A DNA stretch of 35,821 nt. Origin: Verrucomicrobiota bacterium. Its GTDB lineage: Bacteria > Verrucomicrobiota > Verrucomicrobiia > Chthoniobacterales > JAFAMB01. Of this stretch, positions 24,710 to 34,824 are shown in pieces (position 1 is the first letter of the stretch; every line of letters begins with the position of its first letter). Made by a program: the position numbers and the translations under genes. The stretch is from contig JAFAKL010000391.1 in NCBI GenBank assembly GCA_019235445.1, positions 1-35,821 of the forward strand. Reading direction: 5' to 3'. Below the pieces are notes generated by a model. That model made no database searches. It was given only the letters and a program-made list of their open reading frames with translations, and was not told the DNA's origin.

Positions 24710-24730
24710 TGACTCGCGAAAAACGAGTCA
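24710..24730 (+). promoter_or_regulatory. Candidate bEBP enhancer (UAS) site 1
   Basis: TGACTCG-CGAAAAA-CGAGTCA, a perfect 7-7-7 dyad. Core is ACTCGC-GAAAA-ACGAGT (24712-24728). Confidence 0.65.
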
Positions 24731-24743
24731 TCTCTCCTGGAAA

Positions 24744-24760
24744 GCTCGCGAATTGCGAGT
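24744..24760 (+). promoter_or_regulatory. Candidate bEBP enhancer (UAS) site 2
   Basis: GCTCGC-GAATT-GCGAGT, a 17-bp dyad sharing CTCGCGAA-N3-CGAGT with site 1 at identical spacing; centre-to-centre distance 32 bp. Confidence 0.65.
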
Positions 24761-24834
24761 GTCAGAAGCTGGAGGAAAGAGGAGTTCTATGTCTAAGGCC
24801 TTGAAAATGAAGCGATTCCACTATCTGTACCTTT

Positions 24835-24850
24835 TGGCACGAGTCTCGCT
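24835..24850 (+). promoter_or_regulatory. Sigma54 (RpoN) -24/-12 promoter upstream of the kdp regulatory/structural block
   Basis: TGGCACG-AGTC-TCGCT compared with consensus TGGCACG-N4-TTGC(A/T): one mismatch, with correct GG/GC spacing. Confidence 0.7.
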
Positions 24851-24940
24851 AAGGCAATAAGCGTTGCATCTCATTGTCCAAATGGTGGCGTCGGAAGAAA
24901 CCTGGGCGGTTCGAGGGCTTCTGGGCAAAGAAACGGAGTG

Positions 24941-26761
24941 ATGAAAAGGAAAATCCTTCTTTGGCTCTGCCCGATCCTCATCCTTTTCCTTGGGGTAGGT
25001 CTGTACGCAGTCCTGTTGTTCAATCGGCTCGGCGGTTCGATCAATGTGATTCTGCGGGAGAACTATGACAGCGTGCTGGCCGGCCAGCAGATGAAAGAAA
25101 CCGCTGAGCGGATGGATTCCGGGCTCTCATTTGCCCTGGCCGGTGAAGAGAAGAGGGGGCGCGACCTTTTCGAGCAAAATTTTCCCCTTTTTCAAAAGAG
25201 TCTTAAGAAGGAGTTGGGCAATATCACCCTCCCTGGGGAAGGGGAGGTCGCCGATAAGATCAAGGAGGCCGAAGATCGTTACCAGGCGTTAGCTCGAACC
25301 TTTTGGGGCACGTCCGACCCGGACACCCGGCGGGAAATGTATTTCTCCCAGCTTTTGCCGCTGTTCACGGAGATCAAAAACAACGCTCAGGAAGTCATTC
25401 GCCTCAACCAGGATAACATGGTGGAGGCGGATCACCGTGCCAAATCCCTGAGCGCCGATTCCACGCGGGCCATGGTGGTCCTGCTGGCCTTTGGCGTGGC
25501 TTTGGCCATCTCGCTTGGATACGGATTGCAGCGAGCCATTCTCGGTCCGATCCAGACCTTGACCAGGGTTTCTAAAGAATTGGGTCAAGGCAAGCTGGAT
25601 CAGGTTGTTCCAGTGGCGTCGAACGACGAGCTCGGCCAACTCGCGGACGCATTCAATAAACTGGCGGCACGTTTGCGAGTTTATCGGCAGGCCACCACCG
25701 ATCAAATCTTGCAGGCCCGCCACATGACCGAGATTACTTTCTCCGCCTTCCCGGACTCAATTCTTGCCTTCTCGCTGGATGGAAAGATCAATTTTACCAA
25801 TCCTGCAGCCGTAAAGCTTCTCCAGAAACTGAACGGAAACCATGAACTCCCGCTGGCGATCCAGGAGGAAGTCGGAAAGGTATTAAAGGGAGCCCCGGAC
25901 AGTGTGCCGACAAGTTTTGAAAAGGCGATCCCGGTCCGGATTGATGAGCACGAGGCTTTTCTGCTGCCGAGGGTCATCGGAATGCGCGACGAGCCTGGCA
26001 ACCTGTTCGGGGCTGCCCTGGTTCTGCAGGATGTCACCCGATTCCGTCTCCTGGACGAGGTGAAGACGAACCTGGTTTCGACCGTCAGCCACGAACTGAA
26101 AACCCCGCTGACCAGTATTCGCATGGGTCTTCACCTGTTGCTGGAGGAAAGAATAGGCCCGCTCAACCCCAAGCAGCTCGAGTTGTTAGTGGCGGCGCGC
26201 GAGGACTCCGAACGTCTGCTGCGGATGATCAATGATCTCCTGGACCTGGCGCACCTCGAATCGGGCCAGACGCGACAGCAATTCGAGGTTATCTCACCGC
26301 GGACGCTCATTGAGGAGGCATTGCCAAACCTGCGCTCATTGACTGAGGCGCACGATTCACGTTTGGTGGCGGATGTCGCGCCGGACCTCCCTGACGTTAC
26401 GGTTGATCCCCGCCAGATTAATCACGTCTTTTCCAATTTTGTCTCGAACGCGGCCAGATTCTCCAAGCCGGGGGAGGAGGTCCTGTTGTCAGCCAAAAAA
26501 GTGGGCAAAGCAGTTCGCTTTTCGGTCTCAGATCACGGACCGGGGATTTCTATCGATTTTCAACCACGCGTTTTCGAACGGTTTTTCCGAATTCCCGGGA
26601 CTGAAGATTCGAATGGCGTCGGCCTTGGCTTGGCGATTGCCAAGCAGATCGTCGTTTCACACGGCGGAAGTATCGGGCTTCATAGCGCGCCGGGTGCCGG
26701 GAGCGAATTTTACTTCGATCTGCCATCAGGCGGAAAGAGCAACGAAGGAACAATCAGGTGA
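24941..26761 (+). CDS. Membrane sensor histidine kinase (TM-HAMP-PAS-HisKA-HATPase), KinB-like, associated with kdp
   Basis: N-terminal TM ILLWLCPILILFLGVGLYAVLL; second TM MVVLLAFGVALAISLGYGL plus HAMP; PAS FSAFPDSILAFSLDGKINFTNPAA; HisKA LVSTVSHELKTPLTSIRMGLHLLLEE; HATPase SDHGPGI and [18 protein letters not shown]. Start is ATG 24941 or GTG 24938. Confidence 0.93.
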   Translation: MKRKILLWLCPILILFLGVGLYAVLLFNRLGGSINVILRENYDSVLAGQQMKETAERMDSGLSFALAGEEKRGRDLFEQNFPLFQKSLKKELGNITLPGEGEVADKIKEAEDRYQALARTFWGTSDPDTRREMYFSQLLPLFTEIKNNAQEVIRLNQDNMVEADHRAKSLSADSTRAMVVLLAFGVALAISLGYGLQRAILGPIQTLTRVSKELGQGKLDQVVPVASNDELGQLADAFNKLAARLRVYRQATTDQILQARHMTEITFSAFPDSILAFSLDGKINFTNPAAVKLLQKLNGNHELPLAIQEEVGKVLKGAPDSVPTSFEKAIPVRIDEHEAFLLPRVIGMRDEPGNLFGAALVLQDVTRFRLLDEVKTNLVSTVSHELKTPLTSIRMGLHLLLEERIGPLNPKQLELLVAAREDSERLLRMINDLLDLAHLESGQTRQQFEVISPRTLIEEALPNLRSLTEAHDSRLVADVAPDLPDVTVDPRQINHVFSNFVSNAARFSKPGEEVLLSAKKVGKAVRFSVSDHGPGISIDFQPRVFERFFRIPGTEDSNGVGLGLAIAKQIVVSHGGSIGLHSAPGAGSEFYFDLPSGGKSNEGTIR

Positions 26762-27441
26762 GTGCGAACATTCTCATCGTCGACGACGAGACGAACGTGC
26801 GGTTGAACTATCGGATTACCCTTGAAACAGAGGGCTACGAAATCTTCGAAGCGACCTCGGGTGAAAAAGCGTTGGAGGCGCTGGCCGAGCGCTCGTTTCA
26901 CCTTGCGATCCTTGATATGCGGCTTCCGGCAATGGACGGTCTGCAACTGCTGGGCAAGATGCGGGAAGTAGGAATCACGGTCCCTGCGATGATCGTTACG
27001 GCCTACAGCGATGTGCCGCACGCGGTGCAGGCAATGAAGCTCGGGGCGATTGACTTCTTGCAAAAGCCTCTCAGGCCTGGGGACCTCCGCCGCATTGTGG
27101 CGGAGATCCTGACCCGTCACACCCCGCAGAAAGAGCACACGGCTGAAAGCTACAACTCCCACATCGTCGCGGCGAAACGTTTTCTGAATTTGCGCTCGTT
27201 CGCGAAGGCCAGAATGCATCTCATCAAGGCGTCGGAGTTAAACAACAAATCCGTCGAAGCCTTTAACCTGGCTGGGGTGCTCGCGGAGATGCTCGACGAC
27301 ATCGACAAAGCAAGAAAGTACTACGGCCAGGCGATCAGAATAGACAAGAACTATGAGCCGGCCCAACAGAACATGCGCCGGCTCTTTGAACTACAACATT
27401 TCGGATCTACCTCGGAGCCCCTCAATTTGGGAGAAACGTAA
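26758..27441 (+). CDS. Response regulator with REC domain and C-terminal TPR-like region, no DNA-binding domain
   Basis: REC ILIVDDETNVRLNYRITLETEGYEIFEA...LAILDMRLPAMDGLQLL...VTAYSD...FLQKPL, then helical repeats ARMHLIKASELNNKSVEAFNLAGVLAEMLDDIDKARKYYGQAIRIDKNYEPAQQNMRRL. GTG start overlaps the kinase stop (GTGA). Confidence 0.9.
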   Translation: MSANILIVDDETNVRLNYRITLETEGYEIFEATSGEKALEALAERSFHLAILDMRLPAMDGLQLLGKMREVGITVPAMIVTAYSDVPHAVQAMKLGAIDFLQKPLRPGDLRRIVAEILTRHTPQKEHTAESYNSHIVAAKRFLNLRSFAKARMHLIKASELNNKSVEAFNLAGVLAEMLDDIDKARKYYGQAIRIDKNYEPAQQNMRRLFELQHFGSTSEPLNLGET

Positions 27442-27454
27442 CGGTTAAAACCTT

Positions 27455-27538
27455 ATGACTGACATCATTTATATCGGAGTAAGCATACTTTCGGCTGGGA
27501 TCCTCATTTTATTTACCTGGTCCTGCAGCAGAATCTAA
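27455..27538 (+). CDS. Small single-TM protein (27 aa) upstream of kdpF
   Basis: MTDIIYIGVSILSAGILILFTWSCSRI*: one hydrophobic helix with a W-x-C tail, in-operon position just before kdpF. Read directly from the sequence because it is below the ORF-track length. Confidence 0.6.
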   Translation: MTDIIYIGVSILSAGILILFTWSCSRI

Positions 27539-27551
27539 ACACACACGAACT

Positions 27552-27635
27552 ATGGCAACCCTAATCGTCGGTATCATATCCGTTGGTCTCATCATCTATC
27601 TCCTTTTTAGTATCCTGCGACCGGAAATGTTTTAA
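27552..27635 (+). CDS. kdpF: KdpF-like small membrane subunit (27 aa)
   Basis: MATLIVGIISVGLIIYLLFSILRPEMF*, with the KdpF-typical pattern (hydrophobic, Y-L-x-x-x-L-RPE-x-F) immediately upstream of kdpA. Confidence 0.85.
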   Translation: MATLIVGIISVGLIIYLLFSILRPEMF

Positions 27636-27670
27636 CTCAGGTTTTGGGTACGTATCCACCACTAAATATT

Positions 27671-29482
27671 ATGAACACATCAGGCTGGCTTCAGCTGGCA
27701 CTCTATATTGTCGTGCTCCTTTTGATCACCAAGCCCCTCGGTATTTATCTATTTCGGGTGCTGGATGCCAACGGGAAAACATTCCTCGATCCGGTGGTTA
27801 AGCCGGTTGAACTGTTAACTTACCGGATTTTCGGGGTGGATCCCGAAAAAGAGCAAGGGTGGATTCTATACACTATGGCGATGCTCATTTTCGAGTTAGT
27901 TACCGTGCTTTTTACCTATCTGGTTCTGCGTTTCCAGAACTTCCTGCCGCTCAATCCCCAAGGTATGGCCGGAGTAACTGACCACCTTGCTTTCAACACC
28001 GCCTGGAGTTTCGCCACTAACACCAACTGGCAAAGCTATGGCGGCGAATCGACCATGAGTTACCTGTCGCAGATGCTGGCCCTGGCCTCGCACAACTTTT
28101 TCTCGGCGGCCATCGGTATCGCGATCGCCGCGGCAGTGGTCCGCGGGATTGTGCGCCACTCCACAAAAACGCTAGGCAACTTTTGGGTGGACCTGGTGCG
28201 AATAAATTACTATTTGCTGCTTCCGATTAGCATTGTTTACGCAGTCTTCCTGGTAGCCCAGGGTGTTCCGCAGAATTTTAAGCCGTACGACACGGCAAAG
28301 GTCGTGGAGGTACAAACGGTCCAGGTGCCCAAAAAAGACGACGCCGGCAACCCGGTCAAAGATGCGAAAGGGAACGCGGTCATGGTCGACCAAAAGGTAG
28401 ATTCCCAGAGCATCGTGGAGGGACCAATTGCATCGCAAATGGCAATCAAGATGCTTGGCACCAACGGCGGTGGGTATACCAACGCGAACGCAGCGCACCC
28501 CTTTGAAAACCCGACCCCGCTCTCCAATTTTATTCAGATGCTCTCAATCTTTGCGATTCCAAGCGCATTAACTTACTATCTTGGAAGGATGGTCAAGAAC
28601 CAGGGCCATGGATGGTCCGTATGGGCAGCGATGGCAATTGTATTTGTCGCTGGAGTCCTTGTTTGCTGGGGAGCGGAGGCGGCGGGGAATCCGATCATGA
28701 ACCATGTCGGGGTCGATCGCGCCGGCGGCAACATGGAAGGGAAGGAAGTCCGGTTCGGCATCTTTAACTCTGCTTTGTTTGCCACCATCACGACCGACGC
28801 TTCTTGCGGTGCAGTCAACTCGATGCATGACTCCTTTACTCCGCTCGGTGGGTTCGTACCCCTGTTTAACATCCAAATGGGAGAGATTATCTTTGGCGGG
28901 GTGGGCTCCGGATTGTACGGAATGATTCTGTTTATCGTGCTGGCGGTTTTCATCGCCGGGCTGATGGTGGGACGGACGCCGGAGTATCTCGGAAAAAAGA
29001 TTGAGTCGTATGATGTAAAGGTTGCTTCCATCGCGATCCTGCTGATGGCTTTTTCGATCCTGGGCTTTGCGGGTTGGGCCGCCTTGACGCCGTGGGGCCA
29101 GGCCGGAGAGAACAACAGCGGACCCCATGGTCTGAGCGAAATCTTTTATGCCTACAGCTCATGCACCGGGAACAATGGCAGCGCGTTCGCTGGGCTGACG
29201 GCAAACCCGACTAACAATGATCCTCATTACGATATCACCTTGGCCTTCGCGACGATCATTGGCCGATTTGGAATGATTATCCCGGTGATGGCCTTGGCCG
29301 GTTCTCTGGGGCGAAAGAAACTGATCGCCACCGGCGCCGGGACCTTCCCGGTGACTGGCGGCTTGTTTGTGACTTTGCTGATCGGAACGATCCTGCTGGT
29401 CGGTGCCCTGACCTTCCTGCCGGCCTTAACACTGACGCCGATTCTGGAACATTTCCTGATGCTAAACGGAAAACTCTTTTGA
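27671..29482 (+). CDS. kdpA: Potassium-transporting ATPase subunit KdpA
   Basis: Conserved KdpA motifs: NTAWSFATNTNWQSYGGESTMSYLSQM, QMAIKMLGTNGGGYTNANAAHPFENPTPLSNF, TTDASCGAVNSMHDSFTPLGG, AYSSCTGNNGSAFAGL. ATG 27671 preferred over the upstream 27644 start. Confidence 0.96.
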   Translation: MNTSGWLQLALYIVVLLLITKPLGIYLFRVLDANGKTFLDPVVKPVELLTYRIFGVDPEKEQGWILYTMAMLIFELVTVLFTYLVLRFQNFLPLNPQGMAGVTDHLAFNTAWSFATNTNWQSYGGESTMSYLSQMLALASHNFFSAAIGIAIAAAVVRGIVRHSTKTLGNFWVDLVRINYYLLLPISIVYAVFLVAQGVPQNFKPYDTAKVVEVQTVQVPKKDDAGNPVKDAKGNAVMVDQKVDSQSIVEGPIASQMAIKMLGTNGGGYTNANAAHPFENPTPLSNFIQMLSIFAIPSALTYYLGRMVKNQGHGWSVWAAMAIVFVAGVLVCWGAEAAGNPIMNHVGVDRAGGNMEGKEVRFGIFNSALFATITTDASCGAVNSMHDSFTPLGGFVPLFNIQMGEIIFGGVGSGLYGMILFIVLAVFIAGLMVGRTPEYLGKKIESYDVKVASIAILLMAFSILGFAGWAALTPWGQAGENNSGPHGLSEIFYAYSSCTGNNGSAFAGLTANPTNNDPHYDITLAFATIIGRFGMIIPVMALAGSLGRKKLIATGAGTFPVTGGLFVTLLIGTILLVGALTFLPALTLTPILEHFLMLNGKLF

Positions 29483-29523: not shown

Positions 29524-31542
29524 ATGCCTGCTCAAGCTCAATCTATTTTTGATCCGGCGATTATTGTGCCGGCCATCGGGGATTCGTTCAAAAAACTGAA
29601 CCCGGTCACCCTGGCCAAGAACCCGGTGATGTTCGTGACGGAGGTGGGAGCTCTGATCACCACCGTGCTGCTGGTTACAGGGCACGGCTCTAATTTCGGA
29701 TTCCAACTGCAGATCGCCCTCTGGCTCTGGTTTACTGTCCTGTTTGCAAACTTTGCCGAAGCGATGGCCGAGGGACGAGGCAAGGCTCAGGCGAAAGCGT
29801 TGCGTGCCACCCGAACAGAAACGTTTGGAAATCGCCTGAAGCCGGACGGAACCGTGGAAAAAATCGCCGCGAACTTGTTACGGAAAGGGGACATCGTGGT
29901 GGTTTCAGCCGGCGAACTTATTCCTGGGGACGGTGAAGTGATCGAAGGAGCCGCCACTGTCGACGAGTCAGCAATTACGGGTGAGTCTGCGCCAGTGATC
30001 CGCGAGTCCGGCGGCGACCGCAGTGCGGTCACCGGCGGGACCAAGGTCTTATCTGACGTGATAAAGATCGAGATCACGTCGAACCCAGGTGAGACGTTCC
30101 TGGATCACATGATTGCCCTGGTCGAGGGCGCTTCGCGCCAAAAAACGCCGAACGAGATTGCTCTCACCATTCTCCTCTCGGCCCTGACCTTAATCTTTTT
30201 GATCGCCATGATGTCGTTGAAAGCCTTCGGCATCGCCTCATCGGTCGATTTTACGATTCCGGTTCTGGTTGCCTTGTTGGTCTGTCTGATTCCCACCACC
30301 ATTGGGGGATTACTCAGCGCGATCGGGATTGCGGGTATTGATCGCCTCGTCCAGAAGAATGTTCTCGCCATGAGCGGACGTTCGGTCGAGGCGGCGGGAG
30401 ATGTAGATGTGCTGTTTCTCGACAAGACAGGCACAATTACGATCGGTAACCGGCAGGCGACCGAATTTCTTCCTGCGCCCGGAGTGACGAAAGAGCAATT
30501 GGCGGATGCTGCTCAACTGGCCTCCCTTGCCGACGAGACGCCAGAGGGGCGCTCGATTGTTGTGCTGGCCAAAAACTTCGGTATTCGAGCCCGGGAATTG
30601 AGCGAGATGCCTAAAGTGATCTTCGTTCCGTTTACTGCTCAAACGCGGATGAGCGGTGTTGACATGGATGGCACGAGCTACCGGAAAGGGGCTGCGGAGG
30701 CGATTCGCAACTACGTGGGCGGCCACATGCCGGAAGCGGTCGAGAAGGATGTCAAGGCGGTTTCCAGTTCTGGCGGCACGCCTCTGGTGGTGGCAACCCG
30801 CGAACGAGTGCTCGGCACGATTCAGCTCAAGGACATCGTCAAAGGCGGCTTGGCAGACCGGTTTGAGCGGTTCCGCGCCATGGGAATCCGCACCGTGATG
30901 ATCACGGGCGACAACCCATTGACGGCTGCCGCGATCGCCCATGAGGCCGGGGTAGACGACTTCCTGGCGGAAGCGAAACCGGAAGACAAACTGGCGCTCT
31001 GCCGGAAGGAACAACAAATCGGCCACCTGGTGGCCATGACGGGCGACGGGACAAACGATGCTCCCGCTTTAGCTCAAGCTGATGTCGGCGTGGCGATGAA
31101 CACCGGCACTCAAGCGGCGAAAGAGGCGGGGAACATGGTCGATCTCGATTCGAATCCGACCAAGCTGATCGAAATTGTTGAGATCGGGAAACAACTGCTG
31201 ATCACACGCGGAGCGCTGACCACCTTCAGCATCGCAAATGACGTGGCGAAATATTTTGCCATTCTGCCGGCCATGCTGGTCGGCACGTTCAAAGAAATAG
31301 CACCACTGAACATCATGTTCCTGAAATCGCCGGAGAGCGCGATTTTAAGCGCCGTCATTTTCAACGCGGTAATCATCATCGCCTTGATCCCCCTCGCGCT
31401 GAAGGGGGTCAGATTCCGGCCGCTCGGCGCCGCAAAAATCCTGGCGCGCAATCTCCTGATTTACGGCTTGGGAGGCATCCTCCTGCCGTTTGTCGGGATC
31501 AAGTTGATCGACATGTTTATCACCACCATTGGACTGGCCTGA
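29524..31542 (+). CDS. kdpB: Potassium-transporting ATPase ATP-binding subunit KdpB
   Basis: P-type ATPase motifs: [91 protein letters not shown]. Confidence 0.97.
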
Positions 31543-31556
31543 TCTGAGAAAATCTT

Positions 31557-32168
31557 ATGAAAACCTTTGTGAAAGAACTTTACACCTCGGTCGCTGCAAC
31601 AGTCGTCCTTTGTGCAGTGGTGAGCGGTTTGTATCCGGTTTTGATTTGGGGAATCGGGCAGGTTTTATTTTCGCATCAGGCCAATGGCAGCCTGGTCGAG
31701 AATAACGGTCAGATTGTCGGCTCTGAGCTCTTAGCTCAGGGATTTAGTGGGGCGAAGTACTTTCATCCCAGGCCGTCTGCAGCGGGAACCGGATACGATC
31801 CACTTAACTCCGGCGGGTCGAACCTGGGACCGACTTCGCAGAAATTGATTGACGGAATTAAAGCGAATGTCGCTCAGTACCGGCAGGAAAACGGTTTGTC
31901 CGGCGATGCGGTCGTTCCTGCGGACGCCGTCACGGCGTCCGGGAGCGGGTTGGATCCTCATATCAGTCTACAAAACGCTCGGATACAGGTTCCGCGTGTC
32001 GCTAAGGAGCGGGGTTTCAGCGAAGATGTCGTCCGGGGCGAAGTTAGCAAAGCCACAGATAACCCTTTGTTCGGTCTCGGCGGTGAGCCCGGGGTGAACG
32101 TGTTGAAGGTAAACCTTGCTCTCGACTCGCTCGCGCCGAAAGGCAGACTGGCAGAAAAGAAGCCTTAA
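31557..32168 (+). CDS. kdpC: Potassium-transporting ATPase subunit KdpC
   Basis: N-terminal TM, YFHPRPSAAGTGYDPLNSGGSNLGPTSQKL, PADAVTASGSGLDPHISLQNARIQVPRVAKERG, LFGLGGEPGVNVLKVNLALD. Confidence 0.96.
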   Translation: MKTFVKELYTSVAATVVLCAVVSGLYPVLIWGIGQVLFSHQANGSLVENNGQIVGSELLAQGFSGAKYFHPRPSAAGTGYDPLNSGGSNLGPTSQKLIDGIKANVAQYRQENGLSGDAVVPADAVTASGSGLDPHISLQNARIQVPRVAKERGFSEDVVRGEVSKATDNPLFGLGGEPGVNVLKVNLALDSLAPKGRLAEKKP

Positions 32169-32221: not shown

Positions 32222-32279
32222 CGGGCCGAACTAGTTCATAAAGAACGTGGAGTGAAACGGAGTAAGATTGTCTTGCGCG

Positions 32280-33440
32280 ATGAAGCCGAAGCATGCACCG
32301 GCCGATGTTATGTCAGTCGCCGATAATTCTAACCTGAATCCTACGCCCGATGATTTTTTAACCATCATCCGCCGGCAACAGCTCGGCAAGCTGAAGATTT
32401 ACCTGGGACCCTGTCCTGGAGTGGGCAAGACCTATCAAATGTTAATTGAAGGAAACCGGCTCCGCACCCAGGGCGTGGACGTGGTGATCGGCTATGTCGA
32501 ACCTCACAACCGTCCTGAAACCACTGCGCAGATCGGCCGGCTGGAGATTGTTCCCCCTCTGGTGGCGAAGTATCACGGGATCGCTTTGAAAGAGATGGAT
32601 CTGGACGGGGTCCTGGCCAGGAAGCCGACGGTTGCGCTGGTCGACGAACTCGCGCATACCAACGCGCCCCAGAGCCGGAATCGCAAGCGCTACGAGGATG
32701 TGCAAGACTTGCTGCGGGCGGGAATCAACGTTATCGCCACCGCGAACATCCAACATTTCGAGTCGCTCTATAACATTGTCCAAGACGCGACCGGAGTGAA
32801 GGTAAAGGAGCGTGTACCCGACGAAATAATTACGCAGGCAGACCAGGTGATAAACATTGACCTGCCGGCGGAAGATCTTCTCGAGCGGCTTCAGGCCGGC
32901 AAGATTTATCCCAAAGAAAGGGTGGAGGCGGCCCTGAAAAATTTTTTCACCTCCAAAAACCTGACCCGGCTGCGCGAAATGACGCTAAGCGAGACGGCGA
33001 ATATTCTTGATCGCAAGAACCGTGAGGGTACCGAAACAGAGAGCAACATCGGCGGTCTTGGCCAGGTCATGGTGGCCATCAGCAGCCAGGGACCTGATCC
33101 CGGCCGGTTGCTTCGCAAGACCGCTCGCCTTGCCGAGCGGCTGAATGCGCAATGGTACGCCGTCTACGTTCGGACGCCCAGCGAGTCGGCGGTAAAGATA
33201 GATGCGACAGTCCAACGCCAAGTCGCCGAGACCCTGGAAGCAGCGCAAAAAATGGGCGGATTAGTCATTTCTCTCAAGCATGAAAACGTAGCCCAGGCGT
33301 TGATCTCTTTCGCCAAGGAATACGGCATTACCCACGTTGTGCTCGGACGCCCCGGCAAAAAAGCCTTCCGTTTGTTTAGCCGGGCGCTGCACGATGAATT
33401 AATTCAGGAGTTACCCGGAATAGATCTGGTGATCGTTTGA
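32280..33440 (+). CDS. kdpD: Short KdpD: KdpD N-terminal sensor domain plus universal-stress-protein domain only, no histidine kinase module
   Basis: LKIYLGPCPGVGKTYQMLIEGNRLRTQGVDVVIGYVEPHNRPET...LVDELAHTNAPQSRNRKRYEDVQDLLRAGINVIATANIQHFESLYNIV, then a USP-like domain VMVAISSQGPDPGRLLRKTARLAERL...HVVLGRPGKKAFRLFSRALHDELIQELPGIDLVIV*. Start is ATG 32280 or TTG 32268. Confidence 0.93.
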   Translation: MKPKHAPADVMSVADNSNLNPTPDDFLTIIRRQQLGKLKIYLGPCPGVGKTYQMLIEGNRLRTQGVDVVIGYVEPHNRPETTAQIGRLEIVPPLVAKYHGIALKEMDLDGVLARKPTVALVDELAHTNAPQSRNRKRYEDVQDLLRAGINVIATANIQHFESLYNIVQDATGVKVKERVPDEIITQADQVINIDLPAEDLLERLQAGKIYPKERVEAALKNFFTSKNLTRLREMTLSETANILDRKNREGTETESNIGGLGQVMVAISSQGPDPGRLLRKTARLAERLNAQWYAVYVRTPSESAVKIDATVQRQVAETLEAAQKMGGLVISLKHENVAQALISFAKEYGITHVVLGRPGKKAFRLFSRALHDELIQELPGIDLVIV

Positions 33441-33501
33441 TCCCGGCGCCGCCGTGTCTGCTTGCGCGCCGGCGCCGCTTTAGGCCATATTCTTCGCGGC
33501 C

Positions 33502-34824
33502 ATGCGGATCCTGGTGGTGGATGACGAGAAGAACATTCGGCGGGCAATGTCCCTTGCGCTGGAGTCGATGGATCACGAAGTCGCCACGGCTTCGACCCGT
33601 CAAGAAGCTCTCGAAGCGCTCCGGCAAACGGCCTTTTCGGTTATTTTTCTCGACCTGAAACTCGGACAGGAAAACGGCCTGAAAATGTTGCATGCAATTC
33701 ACCAGGTTGCCCCGTCTACAGCCGTGGTCATGATTACGGCTTACGCGTCCATCGAAACGGCAGTCGAAGCAATCCGCCAAGGTGCCTATGATTACCTGCC
33801 AAAGCCCTGTACCCCGGAACAGATTCGGCAGATTTTGTCGCGGATCTTTCATACCCGTAAGCTGGAAAATCGGGTTCTGGAACTGGAATCGCGGCTGCAG
33901 TCGCAGGTTCCCGAGCTGGAGTTGCCATCAGAAAATCCTGCCATGCAGAAAACGCTGGAAGTGGCCTGGAAGGCATCCGCCAGTGAAGCGACGGTATTGC
34001 TCCTGGGCGAAAGTGGAACTGGCAAAAGCATGCTGGCCAGAGCAATGCACGAACGCAGCGGCCGGCGCGAAAGCGCGTTTGTCACCGTGAGTTGTCCGAG
34101 CCTGTCTCGGGACTTGTTAGAGAGCGAGCTTTTCGGGCACGTCAAAGGGTCGTTTACAGGTGCGCACCAGGAAGTAGCCGGCAAGGTGGCCGTAGCCCAG
34201 GGCGGCACGCTTTTGCTTGACGAGATTGGCGAATTGCCTCTTGAGATCCAGGCAAAGTTGCTCAGGCTTCTGCAAGAGCGAGAGTACGAGCGGGTAGGCG
34301 ACCCCAGTCCTCAAAGAGCGGACGCACGCGTGATTGCGGCCACCAACCGTGACCTGAATCAGGCGGTCGCGGCAGGCCGTTTTCGAGAAGACCTCTTTTA
34401 TCGGCTCAACGTGATCAGCATTACCTTGCCGCCCTTACGCGAGCGCGCTGCGGATATACCCCCCTTAGCCCACAGGTACTTGACGTTTTTTGCCAGGCAA
34501 GCGGGCAAGCGGCTGGATGGTTTCTCAGAAGAGGCGCTCGCTAAACTGCAGAGTTACGCCTGGCCCGGTAATTTACGCGAATTGCGCAACGTGGTTGAGC
34601 GCGCCATTATTCTTGGCAGCGGACCGGTTATCCAGGCCGCTGACCTGGCGATTTTGCCTGGACGCGAGGAGCCGCAGGCGCGGTTGGGCGCGCGCGTTTC
34701 TCTTGAGACCATTGAGAACGAGCACATCCGCCAGGTGCTGGCACAATCCCGGACCGTGGACGAAGCTGCTGAAATCCTCGGGATCGACCCCGCAACACTC
34801 TACCGGAGGAAAAAGCGGCTTTAA
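33502..34824 (+). CDS. Sigma54-dependent response regulator (NtrC family: REC-AAA+-Fis HTH)
   Basis: REC ILVVDDEKNIRRAMSLALE...FLDLKLGQENGL...ITAYAS...LPKPC; AAA+ LLGESGTGKSMLARAMHERSG, ELFGHVKGSFTGAHQ, GGTLLLDEIGELPLEIQAKLLRLLQEREYERVG, RFREDLFYRLNVISITLPPLRER; C-terminal HTH TVDEAAEILGIDPATLYRRKKRL. Confidence 0.97.
   Translation: MRILVVDDEKNIRRAMSLALESMDHEVATASTRQEALEALRQTAFSVIFLDLKLGQENGLKMLHAIHQVAPSTAVVMITAYASIETAVEAIRQGAYDYLPKPCTPEQIRQILSRIFHTRKLENRVLELESRLQSQVPELELPSENPAMQKTLEVAWKASASEATVLLLGESGTGKSMLARAMHERSGRRESAFVTVSCPSLSRDLLESELFGHVKGSFTGAHQEVAGKVAVAQGGTLLLDEIGELPLEIQAKLLRLLQEREYERVGDPSPQRADARVIAATNRDLNQAVAAGRFREDLFYRLNVISITLPPLRERAADIPPLAHRYLTFFARQAGKRLDGFSEEALAKLQSYAWPGNLRELRNVVERAIILGSGPVIQAADLAILPGREEPQARLGARVSLETIENEHIRQVLAQSRTVDEAAEILGIDPATLYRRKKRL

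Follow-up and report, generated by a model that had tools for sequence, protein, structure and literature searches.

A predicted sigma54-dependent promoter with paired enhancer sites ahead of a kdp operon in Verrucomicrobiota

Regulation of Kdp, an emergency potassium pump, is usually taught as the work of KdpD and KdpE, the switch known from E. coli. Paired sigma54 enhancers are known from E. coli glnAp2, where NtrC has two sites at about -140 and -108, about 32 bp apart, in addition to a -24/-12 promoter. In Desulfovibrio vulgaris, the sigma54 regulator DVU3334 was reported to control its own kdpFABC operon, in a study that mapped regulators of its class by in vitro DNA binding (PMC3333781, Rajeev et al. 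2011). That study also describes a KdpD split in two, with the sensor/UspA part and the kinase as separate proteins, and, of the genomes examined there, names only D. vulgaris Miyazaki and S. fumaroxidans as having DVU3334 orthologs with a conserved motif (PMC3333781). A later report counts DVU3334 among the sigma54 regulators (GAFTGA) and assigns it potassium uptake (PMC4641369, Kazakov et al. 2015). Sigma54 control of kdp thus has an experimental precedent in the form of in vitro binding. An earlier note on the DNA studied here was aware of no experimental description of such control; DVU3334 provides one of the same kind (PMC3333781, PMC4641369). Among sigma54 surveys, PMC3162934 mentions kdp only through PTS-Ntr, and kdp goes unmentioned in PMC2725144 and PMC12316311. 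In the open-access literature, we found no report of sigma54-controlled kdp in Verrucomicrobiota.

The stretch of DNA analysed here (35,821 nucleotides, hereafter the window) carries a kdp locus on its forward strand. The first gene of the apparent operon encodes a sensor histidine kinase (HK; 24938..26761, starting at GTG 24938 or ATG 24941) with an N-terminal membrane/extracytoplasmic part, HAMP, HisKA and HATPase_c. Its stop codon is overlapped by the gene for a REC-TPR response regulator (26758..27441), a protein that has TPR repeats, lacks a DNA-binding domain and is conserved in most loci of the host order. The REC-TPR stop and kdpF (27552..27635; NCBIfam TIGR02115 above cut-off) are separated by about 110 nt that contain a 27-codon ORF. 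There follow kdpA (27671..29482; Pfam KdpA 4e-224), whose ORF runs from TTG 27644 and whose likely start is ATG 27671, kdpB (29524..31542; Pfam E1-E2 ATPase and hydrolase domains, and placement in a KdpB tree), kdpC (31557..32168; Pfam KdpC) and a truncated KdpD of 390 aa (KdpD-N; 32268..33440) that has the Pfam KdpD and Usp domains only and no kinase. The best NCBIfam match of this last protein was KdpD_non_kinase, below cut-off. Because the HK and REC-TPR genes overlap and only about 110 nt precede kdpF, the genes from HK through REC-TPR, kdpF-A-B-C and kdpD-N are likely to form one operon. No full-length KdpD was found, the truncated copy being the only strong KdpD-N match genome-wide. An OmpR-type KdpE is absent from the locus, whose regulators are REC-TPR and a REC-AAA+-Fis protein. 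The locus therefore has neither the kinase-bearing KdpD nor the adjoining OmpR-type KdpE of canonical kdp systems.

Three further features of the locus were recorded. The 27-codon ORF, hydrophobic and without an NCBIfam match (MTDIIYIGVSILSAGILILFTWSCSRI, 27455-27538), lies just 5' of kdpF, and L204 and L091 seem to have comparable small ORFs in this position. The REC-TPR gene is present as two tandem copies in L147, L149, L150 and L152 and was not detected in L144, L145 and L051. The kdpD-N/activator gap (33440-33502) holds a GC-rich inverted repeat (GGCGCCG ... CGGCGCC) that a scan did not class as a typical terminator.

The promoter element lies ahead of the HK gene and not immediately ahead of kdpF. 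It reads TGGCACG-AGTC-TCGCT (24835..24850, forward strand) and matches 11/12 positions of TGGCACG-N4-TTGCT, with GG at -24 and GC at -12 in a YTGGCACG-N4-TTGCW context, as expected of a sigma54 promoter; the one deviation, TCGCT instead of TTGCT at -12, counts against this assignment. Transcription is predicted to start at 24861 on the same strand, 12 nt past the -12 GC. Upstream lie two predicted enhancer dyads on the forward strand, a distal one, ACTCGC-GAAAA-ACGAGT (24712..24728, centre 24720, about -141), and a proximal one, GCTCGC-GAATT-GCGAGT (24744..24760, centre 24752, about -109). Their symmetry is imperfect in the innermost pair of the distal dyad (C/A) and the outermost pair of the proximal one (G/T). 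Their centres are 32 bp apart, so that two dyads at integral helical spacing stand about 100-150 bp before the start, as in paired enhancers of the glnAp2 type. The earlier note had drawn attention to these three elements; its sequences proved correct base for base, and recomputing the dyad centres for a start at 24861 again gave -141 and -109. The gap that holds the elements contains no sigma70-type promoter or terminator, and the dyad/promoter region has no Rfam match. The -24/-12 element is overlapped by a 23-codon ORF (MSKALKMKRFHYLYLLARVSLRQ, 24789-24860) that has a good ribosome-binding site, AGGAG, and starts upstream of the predicted +1.

These sequences are rare. The pattern CTCGCGAA-N3-CGAGT occurred twice in the window against 0.07 expected, a count reached in 0/100 shuffles, and TGGCACG-N6-GCT occurred once against 0.10 expected. 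In the 4.05 Mb genome the only perfect dyad matches were the two window sites; the dyad-pair pattern occurred once genome-wide, and its reversed control not at all. As tools for finding a wider regulon, the single-site pattern gave no genome-wide excess (150 matches vs 165 in the control), and a loose pair pattern was swamped in GC-rich genomes.

We then compared the window with kdp loci retrieved after a KdpA search of the host order. The regions upstream of HK yielded 26 usable orthologs, 25 from Verrucomicrobiota and one labelled deltaproteobacterial (L051). Most of the close kdp loci have the order activator, HK, REC-TPR, kdpABC, kdpD-N; in the window the activator gene is instead at the far end. 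Since the activator is directly upstream of HK in most relatives, the dyads there sit between the activator and HK genes. TGGCAY-N7-GC was found ahead of HK in 24 of the 26 loci, where shuffles predict 0.33, and the other two keep a weaker, recognisable form (CGGCACATCCTAAGCT in G048, TGGTATCCCTCCAGCT in G038). The same motif was found in none of six kdp loci of the KdpDE type from that order. For the dyads we relied on an alignment anchored on the promoter, a free search for palindrome pairs plus promoter being too noisy. In 18 anchored loci there were two palindromy peaks, one 84-88 bp ahead of the -24 GG (z about 6 vs shuffles) and one 117-118 bp ahead of it (z about 3.8), and in most relatives the counterpart of the distal dyad lies 116-122 bp ahead of the first G. 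These offsets are conserved though the half-site letters differ between families. The best site-pair spacing was 31 or 32 bp in about 15.5/26 loci vs about 1.2 expected; the consensus strings behind this count, though not the spacing, were picked after viewing the sites. Since the genomes are related and the strings were chosen post hoc, the conservation figures are guides and not independent probabilities.

Conservation has its exceptions. The distance from sites to promoter is less constant, the proximal centre lying at 70 bp in L051 and about 50 bp in G159. In G038, G042 and G119 the sites are weak, and in G154 the pair is spaced by 23 bp. Linkage to the activator is not universal either, its gene lying on a separate contig in G005, G001 and G002. 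Two Bacteroidota kdp loci with a nearby activator (L091, L094) gave no convincing -24/-12 element by regular expression, and G223 (L204), which has a short KdpD-N and neither activator nor HK nearby, showed no clear promoter. Conservation of the dyads and the -24/-12 element in orthologous intergenic regions, which the earlier note had set as a test that could refute its reading, was borne out.

The half-sites themselves fall into types. Distant Verrucomicrobiota and L051 have TTGCA-N3-TGCAA operators (TTGCATTTTGCAA occurs twice in G159, 32 bp apart), several order-level relatives have GTGCA-N3-TGCAC, and in the window's family the form is CTCGC-N5-GCGAG or close to it. As both halves of the palindrome changed in concert, binding by a dimer is supported. 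Read across these loci, the operator has drifted from TTGCA-N3-TGCAA to CTCGC-N5-GCGAG while the architecture stayed. The recognition helix of the activator ends in RRKK in the window's family and mostly in RKRK elsewhere; the apparent tracking of operator type by this helix end is only suggestive, resting as it does on about one evolutionary split.

The putative ligand of both dyads is the NtrC-class activator encoded at 33502..34824 on the forward strand, 61 bp after kdpD-N. A domain search gave REC, sigma54 AAA+ and Fis HTH, the composition of an NtrC-class enhancer-binding response regulator, in agreement with the gene call of the earlier note, whose calls for the neighbouring genes were right too. 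Its GSFTGA (GAFTGA in most orthologs), Walker A and B motifs and phospho-acceptor Asp of REC are intact. It is not NtrC itself, scoring 376.4 bits against the NtrC equivalog cut-off of 558.6, and its named relatives are from Verrucomicrobiota MAGs. RpoN is encoded in the genome (Sigma54_DBD 1.1e-57 at G000:C244). By eye, neither dyads nor a sigma54 site were apparent ahead of the activator gene itself in relatives. The genome also encodes a paralogous activator-HK pair (L179:4649-7849, G000:C295). Its two members show about 51% and 36% identity to their kdp-linked counterparts, and in the family the pair has conserved neighbours of its own, without kdp.

Was an ordinary KdpDE system replaced at this locus? 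Other kdp loci of the order have a full-length KdpD (883-897 aa) and an OmpR-type KdpE. In a KdpB tree, whose rooting is arbitrary, the sigma54-type loci including L051 formed one group and the KdpDE-type loci another, with one label change each; three loci without visible regulators fell on the KdpDE side. More distant Verrucomicrobiota have the activator-HK-KdpD-N cassette beside a divergent pump, with a KdpA identity of only 37-39%. From the KdpB grouping and these distant cassettes, we infer an old cassette with its pump and no recent swap in the window's ancestor. The sigma54-type arrangement of kdp looks real and old. The regulatory replacement proposed in the earlier note stands insofar as the KdpD kinase and KdpE are absent; it fails as a recent event, the tree pointing to a kdp lineage that has long been separate and has regulators of its own. 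Somewhat short of an even chance, in our estimate, is a wider history in which an old portable cassette (NtrC-class activator, HK, KdpD-N and twin 32-bp operators) joined at least two distantly related Kdp pumps, operator and activator specificity changed together in the window's family (TTGCA-N3-TGCAA to CTCGC-N5-GCGAG; RKRK to RRKK), and REC-TPR was added as a third signalling component. We also observed, at L207:4154-8804 and L209:7605-12789, an activator-HK-KdpD-N cassette that has both TTGCA-N3-TGCAA sites and a -24/-12 promoter, with no kdpABC detected adjoining, and a second, divergent KdpA-like gene (44-45% identical) alone between activator and HK at L143:11645-13312 and L149:5742-7409.

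Taken together, the conserved -24/-12 element and site pair, the uniqueness of the pair in the genome, the presence of RpoN and the six KdpDE-type loci without such a promoter make sigma54/enhancer control of kdp very likely. Phylogenetic footprinting, rpoN, the complete activator and the fact that most relatives encode it next to the HK-kdp operon all uphold the central proposal of the earlier note, a sigma54 promoter with paired enhancers controlling the kdp block. The region 24710-24850 is thus, with high probability, the sigma54-dependent, enhancer-activated promoter of the HK/REC-TPR/kdpFABC/kdpD-N operon. In the mechanism that we propose, K+ shortage, or another signal read by HK, would lead HK to phosphorylate the 33502-34824 activator; gene content is what points to K+. 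KdpD-N/Usp possibly tunes the signal that HK reads. Two activator dimers would bind the dyads on one helix face, 32 bp being about three turns, and assemble into an AAA+ ring; by looping, this ring would reach sigma54-RNA polymerase at 24835-24850 and drive promoter opening. A transcript that runs from HK and REC-TPR on into kdpFABC would constitute positive feedback and possibly extend to the activator gene past kdpD-N. REC-TPR, having no DNA-binding domain, may serve as a phosphate sink or scaffold.

The position of the promoter before HK would also suit an autoregulatory element that serves HK and REC-TPR only, kdpFABC having a separate promoter, and several relatives do have 1.5-3 kb with other genes between REC-TPR and kdpA. 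We consider this unlikely: the window genes are tightly packed, with the HK/REC overlap and the short gap before kdpF, and a strict -24/-12 search (TGGCAY-N7-GC, hence sigma54 type only) found no site in 26758-27644, nor in the 1.5 kb before kdpA in four long-gap relatives. It is somewhat less probable still that promoter and dyads are real and bound by another activator, such as the paralogous REC-AAA+-Fis protein, which the window's genome shares with family members and whose Fis helix (TLYRKRKRL) is similar. The kdp-linked activator, however, flanks these sites in most relatives, whereas the paralog keeps its own neighbourhood, and the paralog helix carries RKRK, as in orthologs with GTGCA sites, not the RRKK found with CTCGC-type sites.

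Control at the RNA level, with the dyads as hairpins or attenuator parts, the 24789-24860 ORF as leader peptide and the -24/-12 match as chance, is very improbable. The ORF with its AGGAG does overlap the -24/-12 element and the dyads could fold as short hairpins, but neither a terminator-like site nor an Rfam family was found there, the dyad-to-dyad spacing is fixed, the -24/-12 element recurs across the orthologous loci, and the ORF had no counterpart by eye in aligned relatives. If the sigma54 reading holds, many members of a largely uncultured phylum would use sigma54 and paired enhancers for Kdp in place of KdpD/KdpE, a tight, ATP-driven switch. Such an arrangement would offer a reason for the truncation of KdpD in these genomes, and the operators and activators, matched across the phylum, would be a test bed for co-change of a Fis-type recognition helix and its operator.

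Among known systems, glnAp2 is matched in architecture, with two 6-N5-6 dyads about 32 bp apart at similar positions and a -24/-12 promoter; the operator sequence differs and the target is kdp, not nitrogen genes. With KdpD/KdpE-type control the locus shares the pump and the KdpD sensor/Usp domain, but it lacks the KdpD kinase and an OmpR-type KdpE. Deinococcus radiodurans, like the window, has a naturally truncated KdpD-N with kinase and regulator in separate genes; its regulator binds directly to a T-rich intergenic region of 38 bp, and the available text describes no sigma54 promoter (PMC5716572). Another is the DVU3334-3339 kdp operon of Desulfovibrio vulgaris Hildenborough, where, according to the published descriptions, a sigma54 response regulator and a split KdpD are linked to kdp as in the window, a likeness of described gene content. 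There, by the same descriptions, the genes stand in another order (regulator DVU3334, kinase DVU3335, sensor DVU3336), the operon is also bound by DVU0596 and DVU3305, and REC-TPR, part of the window locus, is not mentioned. New here are the phylum-wide pairing of sites at 31-32 bp, REC-TPR as a partner, and the drift of the operator.
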